Shown: piece after piece, positions 35,939 to 58,888 of the stretch
How the letters are laid out: every line of letters starts with the position of its first letter
Numbering within the stretch: position 1 is the first letter of the stretch
The notes under the pieces: generated by a model
Told to the model about the DNA's origin: nothing
What the model saw: only the letters and a program-made list of their open reading frames with translations
Database searches by the model: none
Assembly: GCA_025999455.1 (NCBI GenBank)
Contig: AP024683.1
Span: 1,433,501-1,497,500 of the forward strand
Length of the DNA: 64,000 bases
Direction: 5' to 3'
DNA from: Geminicoccaceae bacterium
GTDB taxonomy: Bacteria; Pseudomonadota; Alphaproteobacteria; Geminicoccales; Geminicoccaceae
Made by a program: the position numbers and the translations under genes

Positions 35939-36805
35939 ATGGCGAGGATCCCGCGGACCGAGCTCCTCGAGCGGCTGCGCGCGAAGGTGGCGCGCGGCGA
36001 GCCGATCGTGGGCGGCGGGGCCGGCACCGGGATTTCCGCCAAGGCCGAGGAGGCGGGCGGGATCGATCTGATCGTCGTCTACAATTCCGGCCGCTACCGG
36101 ATGGCCGGGCGCGGCTCCTTGGCCGGGCTCATGCCCTACGGCGACGCCAACGCCGTCGTCCTCGAGCTCGCGGCCGAGGTCCTGCCGGTCGTGACGAGCA
36201 CGCCCGTCCTCGCCGGTGTGTGCGCGACCGACCCCTTCCGGAACATGGACCTCTTCTTGGACGAGCTCGCCCGGCTCGGCTTTTCGGGCGTGCAGAACTT
36301 CCCGACCGTGGGGCTGATCGACGGTACCTTCCGGGTGAACCTCGAAGAGACCGGGATGGGCTACGGCCTCGAGGTCGAGATGATCCGCCGCGCCCGCGCG
36401 AAGGATCTCTTGACCACGCCCTACGTCTTCTCGGCCGAGGACGCGGAAGCGATGGCGCGGGCCGGGGCGGATCTGATCGTCTGCCATTTGGGGCTCACCG
36501 CGGGCGGGACGATCGGGGCGCGGACCACGCTGCCGCTCGAGCGGGCCCCCGAGCTCGTCGACCGCTGGGCGGAGGCGGCGCTCGCCGTGCGGCCCGATCT
36601 CCTCGTGCTCGTGCACGGCGGGCCGGTCGCGACCCCCGAGGATGCCCGCTTCGTGCTGGAGCGGTGCCGGCACTGTCACGGCTTCTACGGGGCGTCCTCG
36701 ATCGAGCGGCTGCCCGTCGAGCGGGCGATCGCCGAAGAAGTGCGGAAGTTCAAATCGATCCTCCGACCCGCAGGCCGGGCGGAGAGCGGGAGGCAGGCTG
36801 GATGA
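35939..36805 (+). CDS. PEP-hydrolase-like TIM-barrel protein
   Basis: 288 residues. The whole length matches the TIM-barrel family named phosphoenolpyruvate hydrolase-like: [69 protein letters not shown]. In plants and bacteria this domain is often joined to UPF0261; here it is the next gene, 4 bp away. Substrate unknown; a lyase or hydrolase acting on a small acid is likely. ATG at 35939. The stop overlaps the flotillin-like gene (ATGA). Confidence 0.85.
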
Positions 36806-39800
36806 GCGCGCAGGCTTGGGGCCAACTGATCCTCTGGCTGATCGTCGCGATCATCGTCATCGCGGTCGTCGTCTATCTCTTGAACCTCCTCTACCGGCGC
36901 TCCTCCAAAGAGGTCTCGTTCGTCCGGACGGGTCTCTTCGGCGAGAAGGTGGTGATCAACGGCGGCGCCTTCGTCTTCCCGTTCGTCCACGAAGTGACGC
37001 CGGTCAACATGAACGTCCTGCAGCTGCAGGTCGTCCGCGCCCGCGAGGACGCGCTCATCACCAAGGACCGGATGCGGGTCGACGTGGACGCCGAGTTCTA
37101 CGTCCGGGTCGCCCCGACCAAGGAGGCGGTGGCGCTGGCCGCCGCCACGCTCGGCAGGAAGAGCCTCGAGCCCGAACGGCTGCACGCCCTCTTGTCGGGC
37201 AAGCTCGTCTCGGCGCTGCGTTCGGCCGCCTCCGAGATGACGATGCAGGAGATGCACGAGCGGCGGGCGGACTACGTCGCCCGGGTCAAGGCGGCCTGCG
37301 AGGAGGCGCTCGTGCAGAACGGGCTCGTCCTGGAATCGGTCGCGATCACCGACCTCGACCAGACCGACCTCGAATTCTTCAACCCCTCGAACCGCTTCGA
37401 CGCCGAGGGTCTGACCCGGCTCATCGAGGAGATCGAGGCGCGGCGCAAGCTGCGGAACGACATCGAACAGGAAACGATGATCGCGATCCGCACCCGCAAC
37501 CTCGAGGCCGAAAAGCAGGCGCTCGCGATCGAGCAGGAGAGCGAGGCGGCACGGCTCGAGCAGCAGCGCGAGGTCGAATTCCGCCGCGCCGCCCAGCGCG
37601 CCGAGATCGCCCGCGAGCGGGCGCGCCGCGAGACGGAGGCCGAAGAAGCCGCGATCGCCGCCCGGGAAGCGGTCGAGAAGGCACGGATCGCGCAGGAGCG
37701 GGCGCTCGCCGAAGCGCGGATCGAGGCCGAACGCACCACCCGCGAGCGCGAGATCGAGCGGCAGAAGGCGATCGAGGCGGCCGAGATCGCGGCGCGCGAG
37801 GCCGTGGAGAAGGCGCGGATCGCCCAGGAGCTCGAGCTCACCGAAGCGCGGATCGCCTCGGAAGAGGAGACCCGGCGGCGCGAGATCGAGCGCGAACGCG
37901 CCCTCGAGGCGGCGGCGATCGCCGCCCGGGAGGCGACCGAGAAGGCCCGGATCGCGCAGGAGCTCGAGGTCGAACAGGCCAGGATCCGGAGCGAAGAAGA
38001 GACCCGCCGGCTCGAGATCGAGCGGCAGAAGGCGCTCGAGGAAGCCGAGATCGCCGCCCGCGAGGCGACCGAAAAGGCCCGGATCGCGCAAGAGAAGGCC
38101 GTCACGGACGCGCGCATCGCCACCGAAGAAGCGATCCGCCAGCGCGAGATCGCCCGCCAGCTCGCGATCGAGCAGGCCGAGATCGCGGCACGAGAAGCGG
38201 TCGAGCGGCTCAAGATCGCCGAAGCCGGGGCCGTGGCGGCCGAGCGGATCGCCACCGACCGGCGCACCCGCGAGCTCGAGATCGAGCGGCAGAAGGCGCT
38301 CGAGGAGGCCGAGATCGCCGCTTCCCAGGCGGTCGAGGCGGCGCGGATCGCGCGCGAGAAGCTGCTGGCCGCCGAGCGGATCGCGGCCGAACAGGACACC
38401 CGGACCCGCGAGATCGCCCGCACCCGCGAGCTCGAGCGCGAGCAGATCGCCGCCAAGGAAGCGATCGAGGCCGCCCGGATCGCTCAGGAAGAGAAGGTCC
38501 GCCGGCTCGAGATCGCGCGCAACGAGGCCCTCGACCTCGCCGAAGTCGCGGCCCGCGAGGCGACCGAGAAGGCGCGGATCGCACAAGAGAAGGCGATCGC
38601 GGCGGAGCGCGCGGCGAGCCGCGCAGCGGTCCAGGAAGCCGAGATCGCCGCCGAAGAGGCGGTCGAGGCGGCGCGGATCGCCCAAGCCCAGCGCCTCGCG
38701 GTCGAGCGGATCACGGCCGAGATCGCGACCCGGCTCAAGGAGATCGAGCGGCTCGGCCGGCTCGAGACCGAGGAGGTCGCGACCCGCAAGACGATCGAGA
38801 GCGCCAAGATCGCGGCCGACCGCGAGCTCGCCGCCGAGCGGGTGGCGCGCGAAGAGCACGTCCGCCAGCTCGAGATCGCCAAGAACCGCGCCCTCGACGA
38901 GGCCGAGGTCCTCGCCCGCGAGGCCGTCGAGAAGGCCAGGATCGCCCAAGCGCGCACGCTCGCGGCGGAGCGGATCGCGGCCGAGCAGGACACGCGGGCG
39001 CGCGAGATCGAGCGGCAGAAGCTGCTCGAGGCCGCCGATCTGGCCCGCCGGCACGCGGTCGAGCAGCAGCGGATCGCGGTCGAGCTCGCGCTCGAGGAGG
39101 AGCGGATCGGCTCGGAGCGGACCCGCCGCACGCTCGAGATCGACCGCGACCGGGCGATCGAGGAGGCGCTCGAGGACAAGACCGTGAAGCTCACGGCCAA
39201 GCGCATCGAGCGCAGCGAGGCCGAGCGCAAGGTCAAGGAGGCCGAGCTCGGCACGCGGCGCGAGATCGCCAAGCTCGAAGTGGGCGTCGAGCAGGCCGTG
39301 GAGGCGGCGCGGATCGAGCGCAAGCGGGCCCTGGAACAGCTCGAGGTGGCGCGCAGCCAGGCGCTGCAAGAGGCCGAGATCGCCGCCCGCGAGGAGGTCG
39401 AACGGGCCCGGATCGCGGCCGAGCGCGGGCTCGACGAGGCGCGGGTCGCGCGCGAGCGGGATCTCCGCAAGCTCGAGATCGCGCGCGAACGCGAGGTCGA
39501 GCTCGCGCAGAAGGAAAAGGCGATCGTGCTCTTCATGAAGGCGGTCGAGGAGGCCGCGGCCAAGATCGAGGCCGAAGCCGCGCTCGCCCGGGCGGCCGAG
39601 GCGGAGGAGCGGACCAAGACGGTGCGCGAGACCGAGGCGGCACGCCGCAAGCGTACGGTCGACCTCCTGATCGCCGAGCTCGAGGCCGAGGCCAAGAAGA
39701 TCGCGGCGGATGCCGATCGGGTCCGGGCGGAGGTCGAGGCCGAGGCGCAGCGGCTCATGAACGAGGCCGAGAACGTCTTGACCGACGGGGCCCGCCAGTC

Positions 39801-40179
39801 GCTCTTCCGCCGCCGCCTCCTGGATCGGATCGAGGGGATCGTCCGCGAGAGCGTGCGCCCGCTCGAGAAGATCGAGGGCATCAAGATCCTGCAGATCGAC
39901 GGGCTCGGCGGCTCGGGCCACGGTGGCGAGCGGCGCAACACGACCGACGAGGTCATCGACGCGGCGCTGCGCTACCGGGTCCAAGCGCCGATGATCGACA
40001 CGCTCTTGAAAGACATCGGCATCGAGGGGGGCTCTCTCGCCCGCATGGGCGGGCTCATCCGCGAGGCGCGCGACATGGATGCGATCCGCCGCGAGGCGGA
40101 GAAGGACAAGGCCCGGCGCGAGGCCGCCGAACGCGAGAGCGGCGGCGGCGGTGGTGCGGGCGGCGGGCAGGGGCCCTGA
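36802..40179 (+). CDS. giant flotillin/SPFH-like protein with hendecad coiled coil
   Basis: 1125 residues. A membrane helix lies at about 9-30, then an SPFH/band-7 domain (about 35-215; [46 protein letters not shown]). A very long coiled coil runs from about 215 to 980. From residue 285 to about 790 it is built of 12 near-identical units, ten of 44 and two of 33 residues, all multiples of 11; another 44-residue unit lies at about 855-898. The C-terminal part (about 1000-1080) resembles the flotillin oligomerisation region; the tail is Gly-rich. Flotillins are usually 450-700 residues. Flotillins scaffold membrane microdomains. ATG at 36802 overlaps the upstream stop; the gene lies inside a transport/hydroxylase cluster. 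Confidence 0.88.
37654..39171 (+). repeat. 132-bp (44-codon) tandem repeats in the flotillin-like gene
   Basis: Twelve in-frame units start with a version of [14 protein letters not shown]. Lengths in order: 44 x6, 33 x2, 44 x4 codons. The 33-codon units lack exactly 11 codons. Units diverge at the DNA level but keep the phase, so the array grew by old duplications and is held by selection for an 11-residue period. Confidence 0.85.
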
Positions 40180-51742: not shown

Positions 51743-52516
51743 ATGCAGCGGCCTTGCGTGCGCGAGCGGATCCTCGCGGGTGAGCCGGTGTACGGCACGA
51801 TGGTCTTCGAGTTCTTCACGCCGGGATTGCCGGCGATCCTCGCCGCCGCCGGCTTCGACTTCGTGATCCTCGACACCGAGCACAGCGGGGTCGGGATCGA
51901 CACGTTGAAGACCGTGATCGCCTGCGCCCGCGGCCTGCCGATCGAGGTCTATGTCCGCGTGCCGGAAAAGTCCTACGCGGCGGTCGCGACCGTGCTCGAT
52001 GCCGGGGCGCAGGGGATCATGGTGCCGATGCTCGAGACGGCCGAGCAGGCGCGCGATCTCGTCGAGTGGGTGCGCTACCGGCCGGAAGGCAAGCGCGGCT
52101 GCGCCTTCGGTATGGCGCACGACGGCTACCGGGCGCAGGACGTCGTCGCCTACATGGCCGAAGCGAACCGCCGCAACCTCGTGATCGGCCTCCTCGAAAC
52201 GCGCCGGGCGATCGACAACGCCCCCGCGATCTGCGCCGTGCCGGGCTTCGACGTCGCGTGGCTCGGCCATTTCGACTTGACGAACGACATGGGGATCACG
52301 GCCCAGTTCCAGCATCCCGACTTCTGGGCGGCGGTCGACCGGCTCGTGGCGGCGGCCGAGGCCCACGGCAAAGCCCTCGGCGCGGCGGACGGCGATCTCG
52401 CCTATCTCGCGAAGCTGCGGGCCAAGGGCTTCAAGGTGCTGGGCTACGGGACGGACATCGCGGTCCTGCGTAACGGCTTGGCCGAGGGCCGGGCGCGGCT
52501 TTCCGCCCTCGGCTGA
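51743..52516 (+). CDS. HpcH/HpaI-type aldolase/citrate-lyase family protein
   Basis: 257 residues, class II metal-dependent aldolase TIM barrel. VYGTMVFEFFTPGLPAILAAAG, DFVILDTEHSG, VPMLETAEQA and YGTDIAVLRNG match the family; the metal-binding Glu is in LETAE. Cleaves 4-hydroxy-2-oxo acids to pyruvate plus an aldehyde in aromatic catabolism. May finish a pathway started in the preceding cluster (inference). ATG at 51743 with GGGAGGGACGG upstream. 229 bp to cmr1. Confidence 0.9.
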   Translation: MQRPCVRERILAGEPVYGTMVFEFFTPGLPAILAAAGFDFVILDTEHSGVGIDTLKTVIACARGLPIEVYVRVPEKSYAAVATVLDAGAQGIMVPMLETAEQARDLVEWVRYRPEGKRGCAFGMAHDGYRAQDVVAYMAEANRRNLVIGLLETRRAIDNAPAICAVPGFDVAWLGHFDLTNDMGITAQFQHPDFWAAVDRLVAAAEAHGKALGAADGDLAYLAKLRAKGFKVLGYGTDIAVLRNGLAEGRARLSALG

Positions 52517-52745: not shown

Positions 52746-54140
52746 ATGACCGCCCGGACGGCCCCGACGATCGCCGAACTGCCGCCGAGACGGGCACGGG
52801 CCACGCCGGCCGGGCCGACGCGCGAGAAGCTCGAGCTCCCGCTGCGGATCGTGACGCCGGTGCTCGGCGGGGCGGCGGTGCCGCGGACGATCGACGAGGT
52901 CGACGTCGTGCGGGTGCCCTCGATCCGCGGCCAGCTCCGCTTCTGGTGGCGGGCCCTCCACGCCCATCTCCACCCGACGCCGCGCGCGCTCCACGAAGCC
53001 GAGAGCGCGCTCTTCGGCCGTGCGGCGGACGAGGGCGGCGGCCGCTCCGCCGTCGACGTGCGGATCTCGGGCGTCACGGCCGGCAGTGTCGATCGGACCG
53101 AGGTCAGACTTTACGGGGCCCAGGCCACGCCGGGGGCCTACGCGGTCTTCCCCGCGCGTGCCGAAGCCGGCGGCACACCGACGGCACCGCGGCGCCTGCC
53201 GGGCACGAGGTTCACGCTCGAGCTCCTCGCGCCGACGGACCGGCTCGAGGAGCTCCAACACGTCGTCCGCGCCTGGATCCTGTTCGGCGGCTACGGCAGC
53301 CGGACGCGGCGCGGGCTCGGCTCGCTCACCGTCGAGGGCGCCGAGCGGTCGCGCTGGCTGCCGAACGAGGCCACGTGCGCCGAGTTCACGCGGCTTTTCG
53401 GGCGCGACCCGTTCGCGGCCGCGGGCCCGCCGAGCGAGACACCGCGGCTCGCCGGGGCGTCGCTTCTCGTGGGCGAGCCCGTTGCGCAGGCGGAACAGGC
53501 CTGGACGACGGCGCTCCACTGGCTGCGCGACTTCCGCCAGGGCACGAAGACGGGGGCGCGGGAGTCGGGGGAGGGCAAGCCAGAGCCGGCCCGTCCCTCG
53601 ATCTCGAATTGGCCCGAGGCGGACAAGATCCGGCATCTCACCGGCAAGACGAGAAGTCATCCGCCGCGTCACGGCCCGGACCCGGCTTGGCCCCGGGCCG
53701 CCTTCGGCCTGCCGATCGTCGGGCAATTCCAGACGGCTGCCCGCGGGGGCGGTCGTTACGACGAGCCGGGGCCGTTCGAGCTCACTTGGAAGGACGGCGA
53801 CGGATTGCACAACCGCCTCGCGAGCCCGCTGATCGTCAAAGCCATGCCGCTCGCGACCGGAAAATTCGTGCCGATCGCGCTCTGGCTCGAACGGGCTTGG
53901 CCCGAGGGTGGCGAGGTCTTCTTGAAGACCGCCAGCAAGCTGCATGGCGATCCTGCCGCTCCCTTCGACAAACTCCTCGGCAAGGGCGACCGCGCCTACT
54001 TCCCGCCGCTCGACCGGGGCGGCCCGGCGCTCGAGCCCTGTGACGGGGTTTTCCGGCGGGACGGCAGCCCAACGATCCCATTGAGCAGTGGAGCAAACGC
54101 CAACCTACCGCCGGCAAAAGTACGCATCTTCCTCAAATAG
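52746..54140 (+). CDS. cmr1: type III-B CRISPR RAMP protein Cmr1
   Basis: 464 residues. The N-terminal RAMP fold has the Cmr1 signature LPLRIVTPVLGGA and VRVPSIRGQLRFWWRALHAH (residues about 55-75), then ESALFGRAADEGGG and the Gly-rich loop FGGYGSRTRRGLGSL. Cmr1 caps the crRNA backbone of the Cmr complex. It appears full length, although the last 15-20 codons fall where base composition starts to drop, so a small 3-prime replacement by the insert is not excluded. ATG at 52746 with GGGGGAGG. First gene of the operon; cmr2 should follow but does not. Confidence 0.92.
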   Translation: MTARTAPTIAELPPRRARATPAGPTREKLELPLRIVTPVLGGAAVPRTIDEVDVVRVPSIRGQLRFWWRALHAHLHPTPRALHEAESALFGRAADEGGGRSAVDVRISGVTAGSVDRTEVRLYGAQATPGAYAVFPARAEAGGTPTAPRRLPGTRFTLELLAPTDRLEELQHVVRAWILFGGYGSRTRRGLGSLTVEGAERSRWLPNEATCAEFTRLFGRDPFAAAGPPSETPRLAGASLLVGEPVAQAEQAWTTALHWLRDFRQGTKTGARESGEGKPEPARPSISNWPEADKIRHLTGKTRSHPPRHGPDPAWPRAAFGLPIVGQFQTAARGGGRYDEPGPFELTWKDGDGLHNRLASPLIVKAMPLATGKFVPIALWLERAWPEGGEVFLKTASKLHGDPAAPFDKLLGKGDRAYFPPLDRGGPALEPCDGVFRRDGSPTIPLSSGANANLPPAKVRIFLK

Positions 54141-54211
54141 AAATATCTCTGACCATCGCCTAGTGGGCGGTTGAGGCCGAAACTCGTCTGTGCGAACGGC
54201 CGTGCCCACGG

Positions 54212-55540
54212 TTACGACGTGTTGGGTGAGGTAGCTTCGATTGATTTCAGCTTTTTTATCTCAGCTAGTGCAGCTTTCTCGAACCTTTTTACCTGCCTTA
54301 GAATCTTCGATCCATCATCAAATGACTTTGCGCTATGACGCGCGTACGAGCAAAAGTTCCGCACCGTATCTATCGTGGTTCCCTTTTGCACCCTGATGTA
54401 TGAGAATCTGCGGTAGAGCTTTCTCGTGAAAACCTTAGTCGCCTGACCGGTTGCGATTTTCTGCTGTGCCTTGCGCCGCGTTTTGCGAATTGCGCGTCGC
54501 ATTTTTCTCCATGCTCGCGCAAGAGACTTCTCGCGTATCGTTGGTCCCGTCGGAGCGAGTTTAAAGCCAAGATATTGTGCAGAATTGGCAAAAAGGTCAG
54601 CTTTGTTTTCAAGATCAAAAAGTGTACGCTCGGTTTTGGAGTCTTCGATTGAAAGCTTTACTTTTTCAATCTGCTGCTTGATGAAAGTCTCCGCATCGTT
54701 CGCTTTTGCAGGATCGCAAATAACAATAACGTCGTCAGAATAGCGGCGGTAAAAACCACCAATTCTTTCACAATAACGTTTGACATCTAAATCGAAGTCT
54801 ATCATGTAAAGGTTTGAAAGAACTGCGCTGATCGGTGTTCCTTGGGGGATGCCACGTGTTGCCTCGGGATTGGCTTTGAAAGATATCCCCTCTCTTTTTA
54901 ACTCGGCAACGGTTGCAATCAAGGGAAGGCGACGGTTTCGTAAGTTGGGTCCAAATGTCGGATGTTCTTTCAGTTTATCCAAATCAACGTAGTGATATCG
55001 CGTGACGCTTTTAAAAACGGCAAACCAGTCCTTTGGGAGTGACTCGAGGCCAAGCACCGTCTTCAAGCATTTCTTGAGAATTTTGTGATCAAGCGTGTCA
55101 AAGAACAATTTTATATCTAAAGCGATTATTGTCACGGGTGCGTGACACTTTGCATATTCATAAGCAGCAGCTGCAAAATCGTAGTTACTTTTTCCGAGTG
55201 CCCGATAAGCGATGACGTTGTCGCTCAGCCCATTTTGACGATAAAAATCTTCGAGACGAAGGCTCAATTGGTGCGCATACCAAGAATAAATGCATGCGTC
55301 CTTGTGAGAAGCATATTTGATTGGGCGTCTTTTGCGTTCGACGCGGCGTTCGACGAGGTTCGTGCCGTGGGCGGATATTGAAGAAGTCTTTTTGTATCGA
55401 GGTTCGACTTTTTCGTAATGTATCAGTGGACAAAACGAATGCCGAGCTACGAGGGCGGGCCCGTGCGTCGGACACATGACACGCCGCGCAAAATCTTCAC
55501 CTACCGGGACGTCGAAATGCCGATAACGTCGGACCCGCAT
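54212..55540 (-). CDS. anti-phage-type reverse transcriptase (DRT2/UG2-like)
   Basis: 442 residues from the ATG at 55540 (similarity starts at RRYRHFDVP; longer starts add unrelated sequence). RT motifs: entry segment RRPIKYASHKDACIYSWY (71-88), motif A DIKLFFD (142-148), motif B RGIPQGTP (229-236), motif C YSDD (267-270) and YLGF (323-326). A basic tail ends the protein. No maturase, endonuclease or Cas1 domain is fused, and it lacks retron features that I could recognise. The N-terminal RHFD...HSFCPLIHY block followed by the SHxD and AYR motifs recalls the DRT2 class, whose RT copies an upstream ncRNA into concatemeric cDNA in phage defence. GC is much lower than around it: a recent arrival. 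Opposite strand to the cmr genes it interrupts. Confidence 0.85.
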   Translation of the reverse strand: MRVRRYRHFDVPVGEDFARRVMCPTHGPALVARHSFCPLIHYEKVEPRYKKTSSISAHGTNLVERRVERKRRPIKYASHKDACIYSWYAHQLSLRLEDFYRQNGLSDNVIAYRALGKSNYDFAAAAYEYAKCHAPVTIIALDIKLFFDTLDHKILKKCLKTVLGLESLPKDWFAVFKSVTRYHYVDLDKLKEHPTFGPNLRNRRLPLIATVAELKREGISFKANPEATRGIPQGTPISAVLSNLYMIDFDLDVKRYCERIGGFYRRYSDDVIVICDPAKANDAETFIKQQIEKVKLSIEDSKTERTLFDLENKADLFANSAQYLGFKLAPTGPTIREKSLARAWRKMRRAIRKTRRKAQQKIATGQATKVFTRKLYRRFSYIRVQKGTTIDTVRNFCSYARHSAKSFDDGSKILRQVKRFEKAALAEIKKLKSIEATSPNTS

Positions 55541-55910
55541 CCAGCTTAAGGAGGGATCGCGCTGCTGCACGCTGGAGCTTGATGTACGAACGTAGGTCAT
55601 CATTCCACCAGGCAGAGTTCGGGAAGCTAACCCCGACCCTGGGTCCCGGCAAATGCCGGACGCTTCACGAACGCACGCCACCATCTGCCGGGGGAAATAC
55701 CGACGCAACATGCCCGGACACCCACCGGCACGGGTCGATCAACGCCAAGTGGCATATACGAGCCGAGGAGGTGAGAACTATGCTCTCGATCGCAGTCCAG
55801 GTCGGCGCCGCGTTGACGATGCAAATCGTCGGCGCGGTGACGCTGAGCCTTGACATCTTCAACGGCCCCACGGCCGAGCCGTTCCTCGGCCGCGCAACCA
55901 TACGTCGAGA
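55541..55910 (-). other. non-coding region upstream of the RT, candidate template ncRNA
   Basis: 370 bp between the RT start and the cmr3 remnant. On the RT strand it contains a hairpin at 55643-55661 (GTCCGGCA TT TGCCGGGAC with one bulge) and a TATATG box at 55752-55757 that could serve a transcript running toward the RT. DRT2 systems keep a structured RNA of some 250-300 nt just here. I cannot fold it by eye in full. One small plus-strand reading frame overlaps it. Confidence 0.4.
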
Positions 55911-55914
55911 TTGA
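55780..55914 (+). CDS. small open reading frame with strong ribosome site
   Basis: 44 codons, MLSIAVQVGAALTMQIVGAV... A near-perfect GAGGAGGTGAGA lies six bases before the ATG, unusual for chance. The N-terminal 23 residues are hydrophobic. The stop overlaps a TTG (TTGA) that would open the cmr3 remnant frame. No family recognised. It may be a leftover of the inserted element, a leader peptide, or noise inside an ncRNA locus. Confidence 0.35.
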   Translation: MLSIAVQVGAALTMQIVGAVTLSLDIFNGPTAEPFLGRATIRRD

Positions 55915-56252
55915 ATGGGGCGACGTCAAGGGGGCGCATCGAGAATTCCCTCGGGCAGAGCTCGTTGAGAGGAAGTTATGCGCATAAGGACGGCGCCGGC
56001 AAGCTCGTGCTGCGCGCGGCCTTCGTCGACCGGCCGATCGCGGTCTCGGGTTGGGATCTCGCCGAGGGCAGGCCGAAACGGACCGACCGGATGGCGCCGG
56101 CGGGCTCGGTTTTCTTCGTCGCGCGCCGCGACGGCGGCACGTTCGGCGAACAGGACGCCCGGGCCCTCTGGCTCGCCGCGATCGGCGGGCGGACCGAGGA
56201 GGGCTTCGGGCGGGTCGTCCCCGGCATCTGGACAGCGGAGCGAGCGGCATGA
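55911..56252 (+). pseudogene. cmr3: C-terminal remnant of cmr3
   Basis: About 90 residues at the end of this frame match the Cmr3 C-terminus: LRAAFVDRPIAVSGWDLAEG (the conserved GGWD region), RMAPAGSVFFVAR, and GFGRVVPG. The N-terminal RAMP part of about 250-300 residues is missing. Similarity starts near 55980, close to the change from the low-GC insert to high GC. The frame is open back to 55854 but without Cmr3 likeness; TTG at 55911 is only a formal start. The stop overlaps cmr4 (ATGA) as in an intact operon. Confidence 0.85.
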
Positions 56253-57121
56253 GGACGCGGCCTTTCCTGTTGCACGCCCTTTCGCCCCTGCACGCCGGCA
56301 CGGGGCAGGCGGCCGGCATCGTCGATCTGCCGATCGCCCGCTACCGGGCCTCGGGCATCCCCTTCGTGCCCGGCTCCTCGATCAAGGGCGTGCTGCGTGA
56401 CGTCCGGCGCGCAGCGGTGGGCGAGAAGGACCCGGGTCTGCTCGCCGTGTTCGGTCCCGAAACGGGCAACGCGTCGGAGCACGCCGGGGCGCTCGTCGTG
56501 GGCGACGCCCGGCTCTTGGCCCTGCCGGTCCGCAGTTTCCGCGGCACCTTCGCCTGGGTGAGCTCGCCGCTTCTTCTGGAGCTCGTCCGGCGCGATCTCG
56601 GGGAGGGTGCGCCCGAGCTCCCGATCCCGCAGCTCGCCGGCCGCGAGGCCCTCGTGACCACGGGCTCGGCCTGTCTTCATGAACGGAAGCTCTACCTCGA
56701 GGACCTCGATCTGCCGGCCAAGGAGGATCCGGCTGCGGATGCTTGGGCGAGGTTCCTGGCACCGCACGTCTCACCCGGTGAGGACATCTTCACCAAGCGG
56801 TTCGCCCTGGTCGACGACGACACGATGAGCTTTCTTTCCGACAACGCGATGCAGCTCGACGCTCGCGTGCGGCTCGACTCCGCGACCCGGACGGTGGCGA
56901 AAGGCGCCCTCTGGCTCGAGGAAAGCCTGCCGCCCGAGAGCCTGCTCGTGGGGCTCCTCGCCGCCGATCGGAGCCGGCGGAACGGGATCGTGCTCGGCCC
57001 CGAGCAGGTCCTCGACCTCGCGCTCGCGACGGCGGAGGTGCTGCAGTTCGGCGGCAAGGCCTCGGTCGGCCGCGGCCGCTGCCGGATCGTGCCGATCGGT
57101 GGTGCGGCGGGAGGCGCGTGA
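56249..57121 (+). CDS. cmr4: type III-B CRISPR RAMP nuclease Cmr4
   Basis: 290 residues, normal length. Cmr4 forms the backbone that cuts target RNA every six bases. The start HALSPLHAGTGQAAGIVDLPI has the catalytic Asp at residue 26, as in characterised Cmr4. IPFVPGSSIKGVLRD, VVGDARLLALPVRSFRGTFAW and the C-terminal QFGGKASVGRGRC are family marks. So the target-RNA slicing residue is kept even though cmr2 is gone. Start overlaps the cmr3 remnant; stop overlaps cmr5 in TGATG. Confidence 0.95.
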   Translation: MRTRPFLLHALSPLHAGTGQAAGIVDLPIARYRASGIPFVPGSSIKGVLRDVRRAAVGEKDPGLLAVFGPETGNASEHAGALVVGDARLLALPVRSFRGTFAWVSSPLLLELVRRDLGEGAPELPIPQLAGREALVTTGSACLHERKLYLEDLDLPAKEDPAADAWARFLAPHVSPGEDIFTKRFALVDDDTMSFLSDNAMQLDARVRLDSATRTVAKGALWLEESLPPESLLVGLLAADRSRRNGIVLGPEQVLDLALATAEVLQFGGKASVGRGRCRIVPIGGAAGGA

Positions 57122-57618
57122 TGGGCAAGAAGAAGGGCAAGCCGAGCGCTTTCACGCGGGCGCCGGGTGCGGCGGCGACCGCGCCCCCGGCCCCGCAGTC
57201 GCCCGCGAAGCCTTCGCCCGCGCAAATGTCGCTGCGCGCTGCACCCGCACCGTCCCGCCCGGTCGTGCTGCGCGACCAGCAACGGGCCCGCTTCGCCTAC
57301 GAGCGGGTGGCGGCGGTGCCGAAAGAAAAGCGCAAGGACTACGAGAACGCGGTCCTGAGCCTCGGCGCCGACATCCTGCGCGTGGGTCTTTTGGCGGCAC
57401 TCGCGGCGGTCCAGCGGCTGGGCGAGCGCGGCAGAGATCTCCTCGACGATCTCGCGAAGGCGAAGATTCCGGGCCTCGAGGTCGAGAACGGCACCGAGCT
57501 CGTCGCGAAGGCGCGCGAGCTGCCCGTCGACGGCTACATGATCGCCACGCGGGAGACCCTGGCCGTCGTCTCCTGGCTGCGGCGCGCCTGCCAGGCGACC
57601 TTCGGCGAGGCGGCTTGA
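57121..57618 (+). CDS. cmr5: type III-B CRISPR protein Cmr5
   Basis: 165 residues. A Lys/Pro/Ala-rich N-terminal tail of about 50 residues precedes the all-helical Cmr5 domain (about 52-165; RDQQRARFAYERVAAV, VDGYMIATRETLAVVSWLRR). Cmr5 is the small subunit that stacks along Cmr4 and binds target RNA. The tail is longer than in typical Cmr5. ATG at 57121; stop overlaps cmr6 (TGATG). Confidence 0.92.
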   Translation: MGKKKGKPSAFTRAPGAAATAPPAPQSPAKPSPAQMSLRAAPAPSRPVVLRDQQRARFAYERVAAVPKEKRKDYENAVLSLGADILRVGLLAALAAVQRLGERGRDLLDDLAKAKIPGLEVENGTELVAKARELPVDGYMIATRETLAVVSWLRRACQATFGEAA

Positions 57619-58727
57619 TGCGCGCCGCGCTGCCGCGCTTCGACGGCACGGCGAAGACCTTGCCGGATCACGCGGGGCTCGCCTACGAGGTCTGGGCACC
57701 TTTTGCTCCTGCCGACGGCAAGATACCGGACGGCGACCGCCCGAATTGGCTCACCGCCGTCGCCGGGATCGCGCCCTCGCCCGACTACCCGAAGGCCTTC
57801 GAACGCTGGAAACAAAGCTTCGAGCGGCCGGGCGACGTCACGGTCGTGGTCGAAGCGGCCTCGCGGCTGCTCGTGGGCCACGGGCTCGGGAGTGCCACCG
57901 ACGTCGGGCTCACCCTGCACCGGACCTGGGGCGTGCCGCTGATCCCGGGCTCGGCCCTGAAGGGCCTCCTCGCGCATTGGGTCGAGGCCACCTTCGGACC
58001 GGCTCCGGGTGACGTGGACGAGAAGCGGCTGCCCTTCGCCGGGGTCGTGTGGGACGGGCGGCGGATCGCCGAGGGTCCGGGCGAGGTCTACCGGGCGCTC
58101 TTCGGCGCGCCCGAGGCGGACGAGGCGGTCCTTGGGCGGCCGAACCTGGCGGCGGCCGGGCTCGTCACCTTCCACGACGCGCTCTGGGTGCCGGATACAC
58201 CGGGCGCCGGGTCGCCCCTCGCGGTCGACGTGCTCACCGTCCACCAGAAGCGCTACTACGACTCCACGGGCGGCGCGCCGCCGGTCGACTGGGACGATCC
58301 GAACCCCGTCTCGTTCCTGTCGGTGAGGCCCGGCGCGCGTTTCCTCCTGGCGCTCTCCGGCCCGCGCGATTGGGCCGCGCTCGCGAAGGACCTGCTCCTC
58401 GAAGCCCTCGCCGATTGGGGCGTCGGCGGCAAGACGAGTGCCGGCTACGGGCGGTTCCGGCGGTGGGAAGGATCGAACGCGGCGAGCACGGGGAGCGCGT
58501 CGGGGACCGCGGAGGCGCCGCAGCTTCCCGCCGAGGGCTCGACGGTGGAGTGCGTGCTGGTCGACCGCCTCCGCAGCGGGCAATGGCGGGCCCGGCACGA
58601 ACCCTCGGGGCTGCAAGGGCCGATCACGAACTCGAACAAGGTACCGGCCGAGCTCGAAGAGGGAGCGTCGCTCCGGCTGAAGCTCGTCAAGGCGAACGGC
58701 AAGGACAGCCGGTTCGAGGTGCCGTGA
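57618..58727 (+). CDS. cmr6: type III-B CRISPR RAMP protein Cmr6, extended
   Basis: 369 residues. The RAMP core (about 65-285) has LLVGHGLGSATDVGLTLHRT, IPGSALKGLLAHW, FHDALWVPD, LTVHQKRYYD and GVGGKTSAGYGRF. A linker (about 286-305) leads to a C-terminal segment of about 65 residues (TVECVLVDRLRSGQWRARHE...LRLKLVKANGKDSRFEV) that looks like a small OB-type nucleic-acid-binding domain not found in minimal Cmr6. Caps the 3-prime side of the crRNA complex. Last cmr gene; 85 bp from the tRNA. Confidence 0.93.
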   Translation: MRAALPRFDGTAKTLPDHAGLAYEVWAPFAPADGKIPDGDRPNWLTAVAGIAPSPDYPKAFERWKQSFERPGDVTVVVEAASRLLVGHGLGSATDVGLTLHRTWGVPLIPGSALKGLLAHWVEATFGPAPGDVDEKRLPFAGVVWDGRRIAEGPGEVYRALFGAPEADEAVLGRPNLAAAGLVTFHDALWVPDTPGAGSPLAVDVLTVHQKRYYDSTGGAPPVDWDDPNPVSFLSVRPGARFLLALSGPRDWAALAKDLLLEALADWGVGGKTSAGYGRFRRWEGSNAASTGSASGTAEAPQLPAEGSTVECVLVDRLRSGQWRARHEPSGLQGPITNSNKVPAELEEGASLRLKLVKANGKDSRFEVP

Positions 58728-58812: not shown

Positions 58813-58888
58813 TGGTGCTGCCGACTGGAATCGAACCAGCGACCCCGTCCTTACCAAGGACGTGCTCTACCGACTGAGCTACGGCAGC
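58813..58888 (-). tRNA. tRNA-Thr (anticodon GGT)
   Basis: 76 nt including encoded CCA (58813-58815, shown as TGG on the plus strand). Acceptor GCTGCCG/CGGCAGC pairs fully, anticodon stem CGTCC/GGACG with loop TTGGTAA, T-arm GCTGG-TTCGATT-CCAGT. Reads ACC (and ACT) threonine codons. Its 3-prime end faces the cmr operon. Confidence 0.97.

Follow-up and report, generated by a model that had tools for sequence, protein, structure and literature searches.

The closest described system to the locus analysed here is KpnDRT2, the DRT2 (UG2) system of Klebsiella pneumoniae. As described in PMC11100668 and PMC12039810, its reverse transcriptase (RT) uses a 120-nt template, bordered by ACA repeats, to make a concatemer, which rebuilds a promoter and a stop-free open reading frame (ORF) called neo. 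The inference in PMC12039810 covered 42 close homologues and was made between ACA motifs, and PMC11100668 left open whether divergent DRT2 clades build neo genes by another mechanism. Related papers treat the KpnDRT2 structure (PMC12596737), DRT9 (PMC12483538) and DRT10 (PMC12632851). We analysed a 64,000-nt stretch of the Geminicoccaceae bacterium AP024683.1 (hereafter the window), whose genome is a single 3.76-Mb contig that is 99.69% complete. We consider it likely that a DRT2 module was acquired here into a type III-B CRISPR (cmr) operon beside a tRNA-Thr gene, that this killed the III-B effector, and that the module works by the DRT2 concatemer and Neo mechanism.

The window RT scored 395.7 bits against NF041746, the curated Drt2 model (cut-off 390), and 449.5 bits against PADLOC Drt2. 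Its best solved structures were the DRT2-type chains 9lje and 9c0i (227 bits over ~430 residues), the latter named Drt2 and matched with an E-value of 4.4e-66. By these matches, the protein is a DRT2, i.e., a UG2 antiviral RT. Its frame is open throughout its length. The start given in the ORF list, 55711, falls within the non-coding RNA (ncRNA) described below, and the RT likely starts at about 55603, directly past the ncRNA end. Three pattern matches pointed to viral relatives of the RT, none of which was confirmed.

The ncRNA lies directly upstream of the RT gene on the same strand. The Rfam family RF03017 (RT-13) matched it at 55612-55678 on the RT strand with 77.3 bits over 67/67 model positions. 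RT-13 thus resembles the 3' part of the window ncRNA; it models these 67 nt only, and the template lies outside the model. A link between RT-13 and DRT2 was not found in our literature search, nor in PMC11100668. An alignment of 16 sequences (the window and 15 relatives) yielded 54 predicted pairs, 35 of which had changed on both sides. Paired cells amounted to 94.9%, versus at most 45.4% with the partners slid, and none of 500 shuffles was as good. The window ncRNA retains 52 of the 54 pairs.

The complement of the RNA template forms the predicted neo repeat unit of the window. Its Neo frame is open, while the other two frames are closed by stops. Read from the ATG at 55780, the predicted Neo is MLSIAVQVGAALTMQIVGAVTLSLDIFNAKWHIRAEEVRT and is hydrophobic, as is the published Neo.

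We compared such units across 17 loci, consisting of the window, two rhizobial plasmids and 14 genome loci (in L037, one of these, the RT reading is interrupted), with 15 distinct units among them. Template ends were located from an aligned motif, namely GTT preceding the -35 complement and GTT or GTA preceding a conserved CCCG or CTCG; the frame was ignored and no locus was dropped. Unit lengths were 120, 123, 126, 129 or 132 nt and thus divisible by three in 17/17 loci. Exactly one frame, always the same, was open across the junction in all 17, and the other two were closed. These are not independent trials, because the loci are related and 12 of the 17 units are 129 nt long. The 16-row alignment omits L035, which nearly duplicates L033; all its rows share the 5' GTT and the 3' GT, and the last T is conserved in >90%. 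On the two rhizobial plasmids, small "hypothetical proteins" are annotated antisense upstream of DRT2 (L026 3665-3793 and L027 3659-3793, minus strand). They begin as the template complement, i.e., as the neo unit, and read on into the genome; current annotation therefore hides neo genes.

A blind scan covered the ncRNA region of 85 DRT2 loci including the window (L109 was omitted, having no upstream sequence). As the junction, it took a direct repeat of at least 3 nt, 90-159 nt apart, with the best promoter across it, and frames were ignored. Because the scan demands a repeat, matching ends are not a result in themselves; the frame and the sameness within clades are. The best junction was in frame and open in 52/85 loci. 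When no more than one promoter mismatch was allowed, 36 of the 85 loci qualified, 30 of them with units divisible by three and 28 with units that were also open. Among 1,700 dinucleotide shuffles used as a control, 62 qualified, 22 were divisible and three were open. No in-frame open unit was found in 33 of the 85 loci, including most Bacteroidota, eight of those 36 qualifying loci and the 125-nt Pseudomonas candidates L055 and L056. Differing promoters in Bacteroidota would presumably account for their misses.

The repeat follows the RT tree, which was built by a quick method from 85 rows (L037 was too short and omitted). In the alphaproteobacterial clade (16 rows, support 100), the repeat contains GTT in 14 of the 15 rows besides the window and is CGT in L038. 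The clostridial clade (six rows, support 98) has ATTG in 6/6, with units of 138-159 nt that are all open. Rebuilt promoters with 0-1 mismatches were seen in the clostridial AUUG loci L079, L080, L084, L094, L099 and L110. A mainly gammaproteobacterial clade (14 rows, support 94) contained six ACA and two CAA repeats, and its remaining six rows were out of frame, closed or ambiguous. Six further loci were scanned: five DRT2 places at E < 1e-60 (the split RT of genome G388 counted once, the window excluded) and L119 of genome G002. A clear in-frame open unit with 0-1 promoter mismatches was found in three of them (L162 GGT, L163 CGT and L190 CGTT). L161 (44% identical) yielded just an AAT/117 unit with two mismatches, and at L119 this follow-up scan found no good promoter. 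At L164 (G388), a DRT2-like RT is interrupted by stops and has no recognisable template unit, making it a natural decayed DRT2.

Because clade-specific GUU and AUUG repeats bound in-frame open units, the neo mechanism is probably common to at least some divergent DRT2 clades, which would differ in the repeat. We find it likely that gene synthesis is family-wide in DRT2 and that the jump repeat has been exchanged between clades, with ACA in Klebsiella-like systems, GUU in alphaproteobacteria and AUUG in Clostridia. This exchange is a more valuable result than the locus itself. GTT, GUU, ATTG and AUUG are absent as words from the main text of PMC11100668, PMC12039810 and PMC12596737. Our literature search, which took in neither supplements nor the published journal form of PMC11100668, found no paper on other junctions, and these may therefore already be in print.

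In the III-B operon, a preliminary description had noted a low-GC RT gene on the opposite strand between cmr1 and the 3' end of cmr3, followed by clean, overlapping cmr4, cmr5 and cmr6 genes. This layout was confirmed: from an aldolase gene to tRNA-Thr, the window contains cmr1, the opposite-strand RT, the cmr3 end and overlapping cmr4-cmr5-cmr6 (Table 1). The GC content is 43-53% in the RT stretch and 43-63% in the inserted module, versus mostly 64-77% around it (400-base windows), and the GC at third codon positions is 0.48 in the RT versus 0.88-0.89 in cmr1 and cmr4. The same description took cmr1 to be intact, which it is not. Window cmr1 matches its orthologues in two relatives, L015 and L016, only up to residue ~422-429, and residues 414-455 of the ORF, which stops at 54140, resemble codons ~48-89 of L016 cmr2 (47.6% over 42 amino acids, tblastn E-value 6.7e-6). 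Because the ORF tail matches cmr2, the last ~20-25 codons of cmr1 and the start of cmr2 have been deleted and the two genes fused. Of cmr3, about 85 codons are left, close to the earlier estimate of ~90.

Five genomes of the same genus (G001-G005) served for comparison, with cmr loci L016 in G001 and L015 in G004. These two of the five have cmr1-cmr2-cmr3-cmr4 without an adjoining RT. The G001 contig of 4,364 bases holds cmr1 without its start, cmr2, cmr3 and the start of cmr4, which is cut at the contig end, and the G004 operon runs from cmr1 to cmr6. G003 has just the C-terminal part of Cmr6, at a contig end, and no Cmr6 match was found in G002 or G005. The Cmr2 proteins of the relatives are short (604 and 582 amino acids) and have the GGDD motif. 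Compared with these RT-free operons, almost the whole of cmr2 and some three quarters of cmr3 are missing from the window, with ~2.4 kb gone and ~1.9 kb in its place. The loss is ~2.4 kb rather than the 3-4 kb first proposed because Cas10 is short here. The canonical gene order of the RT-free operons supports the proposal that an RT module with its own flank replaced cas10 and the front of cmr3. The refuting conditions named in the preliminary description, cmr2 and full cmr3 elsewhere in the genome or relatives with the RT beside an intact cmr2-cmr3, were not observed. The sole TIGR02577 match in the 3.76-Mb genome, which falls short of the cut-off, comes from Csm1 in a type III-A locus, and the sole Cmr3 (PF09700) match is the window remnant. 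Of a type III-B effector, Cmr4, Cmr5 and Cmr6 are therefore present, and Cas10/Cmr2 and a complete Cmr3 are missing. Judged by this gene content the III-B operon is dead, and we infer that cmr4-6 are relics.

The alignment distance from the aldolase gene to tRNA-Thr is 6.3 kb in the window and ~250-275 bp in G001 and G003. It is ~7 kb in G002, with transglutaminase, amidoligase and ATP-grasp genes, and ~18 kb including cmr in G004; in G005 the two sides lie on separate contigs. From these alignments, the interval is a variable site, nearly empty in two relatives and holding other cargo in two. The abrupt GC change at the module might also arise from an assembly artefact joining two loci. We find this scarcely credible, given a nearly complete genome in one contig, flanks syntenic with relatives, and the loss of the cmr1-cmr2 border, which a simple misjoin would not also remove. 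Comparison with the relatives, as proposed in the preliminary description, mapped the endpoints of the replacement to ~54079-54111 and 55931-55994, both borders being approximate. No second full copy of either module flank was found in the genome, only short partial matches (E-values 0.2-0.7).

The combination of cmr and DRT2 is so far unique within the loci searched. Cmr1-6 were absent at E <= 0.01 around 85 other DRT2 loci (five plasmid, 80 genome), where flanks of up to 7 kb around the RTs were covered (4 kb or 2 kb for plasmid loci; shorter near contig ends). Each of the 85 RTs reaches E <= 1e-30 with the Drt2 model and with no other NCBIfam model; in control loci, the same search recovers a 30%-identical Cmr4. 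Conversely, DRT2 was absent from the examined flank, in places as little as 1.5 kb, at seven other cmr4 places in six genomes (13 loci), whereas the window's own locus was positive. The suggested recurrence of cmr1-RT-cmr4/5/6 was thus seen in neither set. Cmr4 exceeded the curated cut-off in just 3/385 genomes of the class, the window's included. A near full-length RT match was found in 2/60 relatives, counting the window; the other, in G002, is 36% identical and lies at a different place.

These results also bear on a retained hybrid, in which Cmr4-5-6, with the truncated Cmr1, would still act alongside DRT2, e.g., as a filament bound to CRISPR RNA (crRNA) or by using III-A crRNAs or Cas10. 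No CRISPR array was found near the III-B locus in the window or in L015. The genome's III-A locus (L014 8938-19999; C1:2.889-2.900 Mb) encodes Csm1, Csm2, Csm3, Csm4, Csm5 and a CARF-HEPN Csx1; behind it lies an array with 46 or more repeats, which could supply crRNA. The cmr4-6 frames are clean, their ratios of nonsynonymous to synonymous substitution rates (dN/dS) are 0.28-0.37, and the branch shows no significant excess of changes. A hybrid is nevertheless very improbable, as the genome search found neither Cas10 nor a Cmr3 body for such a complex, Cmr1 is truncated, and the arrangement recurs in none of the loci above. The preliminary description had raised this alternative, which our results do not support. 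In the III-A locus, csm3 has 31 lineage-specific amino-acid changes versus five in G004 (p 1e-5), as if it had been replaced or were under different selection.

Pairwise dN/dS between the window and G004 was 0.30 for cmr1, 0.31 for cmr4, 0.37 for cmr5, 0.28 for cmr6 and 0.33 for the cmr3 tail. Values between relatives, where comparable, were similar (cmr1 0.40, cmr6 0.25, cmr3 tail 0.31). Lineage-specific amino-acid changes in cmr1 numbered 26 in the window versus 28 in G004 (p 0.89). Neither measure detected relaxed selection on the remaining cmr genes, at low power; because most of the divergence probably predates the insertion, such constraint tests do not distinguish recency from retention. 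The absence of significant relaxation fits a recent event. That the four remaining cmr frames are clean had been cited against pure decay; the argument is weak, since clean frames and the dN/dS values fit a recent event equally.

Acquisition of the module was probably recent, and the module is probably active. Several observations weigh against this. In cmr6, the window has 41 lineage-specific amino-acid changes versus 28 in G004, a non-significant difference (p 0.15), and in cmr4 it has 12 versus 7, a raw count with distant outgroups. A 9-bp direct repeat, CGCCGGCAA, lies at the module borders (54109-54117 and 55994-56002), with a broken inverted repeat directly inside them. These border repeats were equalled by 330 and 219 of 1000 shuffles and are not significant, and a transposon-borne insertion was rejected. 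By eye, no strong ribosome-binding site was seen before the RT start. The window promoter has a perfect -35 and a weak -10, with three mismatches at 17-nt spacing, and the blind scan chose a 117-nt GAT junction (TTGACA-16-TATACG) over the 120-nt CGTTGA junction (TTGACA-17-CATATA). Both units are open and in frame, and the alignment with relatives favours CGTTGA.

If the DRT2 module were itself dead or dying, the locus would be a defence graveyard. This would agree with the weak translation signal before the RT and with a -10 half that is less consensus-like, at three mismatches, than in 16/16 clade relatives (0-2). We consider it unlikely, as the RT is fully open with its YSDD motif, the ncRNA pairing is nearly complete, and the Neo frame is open where the other two have stops. 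For the promoter as a whole at 17-nt spacing, mismatches range from 0 to 3 in the 16 clade relatives, and the window total equals that of the weakest, L040.

Table 1. Features of the DRT2 and cmr locus and its borders (window coordinates).
Feature	Position	Strand	Remarks
HpcH/HpaI aldolase gene	51743-52516		left border of the locus
cmr1, 3'-truncated	52746-54011	+	~residues 1-422 kept; PF03787, TIGR01894, PADLOC Cmr1; L015/L016 orthologues reach their own C-terminus
cmr2 scrap	54000-54110	+	~codons 48-89, in-frame fusion behind cmr1; tblastn to L016 cmr2 and DNA alignment
Inserted DRT2 module	54111-55993		approximate borders; homology to L015/L016 ends on both sides
DRT2 reverse transcriptase	54212-55603	-	YSDD present; start inferred from relatives; coordinates checked
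DRT2 ncRNA	55612-55895	-	5' hairpin, template and 3' scaffold; approximate ends, set by conservation
neo repeat unit (predicted)	55744-55863	+	120 nt, 40 amino acids; stop-free over junction; GUU-bounded (CGUUGA, RNA sense)
-10 half, weak	55753-55760	+	CATATA at 17 nt or TATACG at 19 nt from -35 in the 120-nt concatemer
neo translation start (predicted)	55766-55782	+	AGGAGG 55766-55771, ATG 55780-55782
-35 half of junction promoter	55850-55855	+	TTGACA, perfect
cmr3 remnant	55994-56252	+	last ~85 codons; PF09700 positions 294-367; L015/L016 alignment
cmr4	56249-57121	+	TIGR02580, 209.8 bits; start and stop checked
cmr5	57118-57618	+	PF09701 over Pfam cut-off; TIGR01881 22.3 bits, below cut-off 27.9
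cmr6	57618-58727	+	TIGR01898, 124.3 bits
tRNA-Thr (GGT)	58813-58888	-	right border of the variable locus; blastn alignment with relatives resumes here

Elsewhere in the window, a very long ORF (36220-40179) contains a coiled-coil region with a 132-nt period in eight copies. From reading the sequence alone, we take its start to be SPFH/flotillin-like.

The course of events we propose builds on direct observations (RT family, conserved ncRNA structure, matched repeats, in-frame open unit, operon damage and RT-free relatives). Its cDNA synthesis, transcription, toxicity and phage trigger are extrapolated from published KpnDRT2 work. A DRT2 module of RT and ncRNA would have entered the III-B operon at the variable site next to the tRNA-Thr gene, and the III-B effector would have been killed by losing most of cmr2, some three quarters of cmr3 and the border between cmr1 and cmr2. 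The RT would bind the ncRNA made directly upstream and copy its 120-nt template. At the template 5' end, the cDNA end would re-pair with the matching GUU-containing repeat at the 3' end, so that copying restarts. The resulting concatemer would join -35 and -10 across each junction and encode the stop-free repeat protein Neo, which may arrest the infected cell.

If the repeat has indeed been exchanged between clades, selection would act on the two copies being identical, the promoter being rebuilt and the frame being kept, and not on the letters of the repeat. Such an exchange would count as natural evidence in favour of the realignment model and would account for the difficulty of annotating Neo outside the KpnDRT2 clade. 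The clade-specific repeats suggest that matching repeats are the real sequence constraint on the jump, and they yield predictions of the template and the Neo protein for DRT2 of alphaproteobacteria and Clostridia. The locus itself is a clear example in which one defence system destroyed another; it lies at a variable, tRNA-linked site that can be compared with RT-free relatives.

Compared with known systems, the locus is best read as ordinary in kind and unusual in geometry: a III-B effector recently lost to a DRT2 module that looks intact. With type III-B (Cmr) systems, it shares partial cmr1 and cmr3 and the genes cmr4, cmr5 and cmr6 in canonical order; it differs in having no Cas10/Cmr2 or full Cmr3, a truncated Cmr1 and no array in the window. 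With KpnDRT2, as described in PMC11100668 and PMC12039810, the window shares the RT family, a same-strand upstream ncRNA of ~280 nt and a 120-nt template. Both also have an in-frame, stop-free neo unit with a ribosome-binding site and ATG downstream of the -10 half and the -35 half near the other end. The window RT is divergent from that of KpnDRT2 and its -10 is weaker, and its template ends in GUU-type repeats (CGUUGA) in place of the ACA of KpnDRT2.

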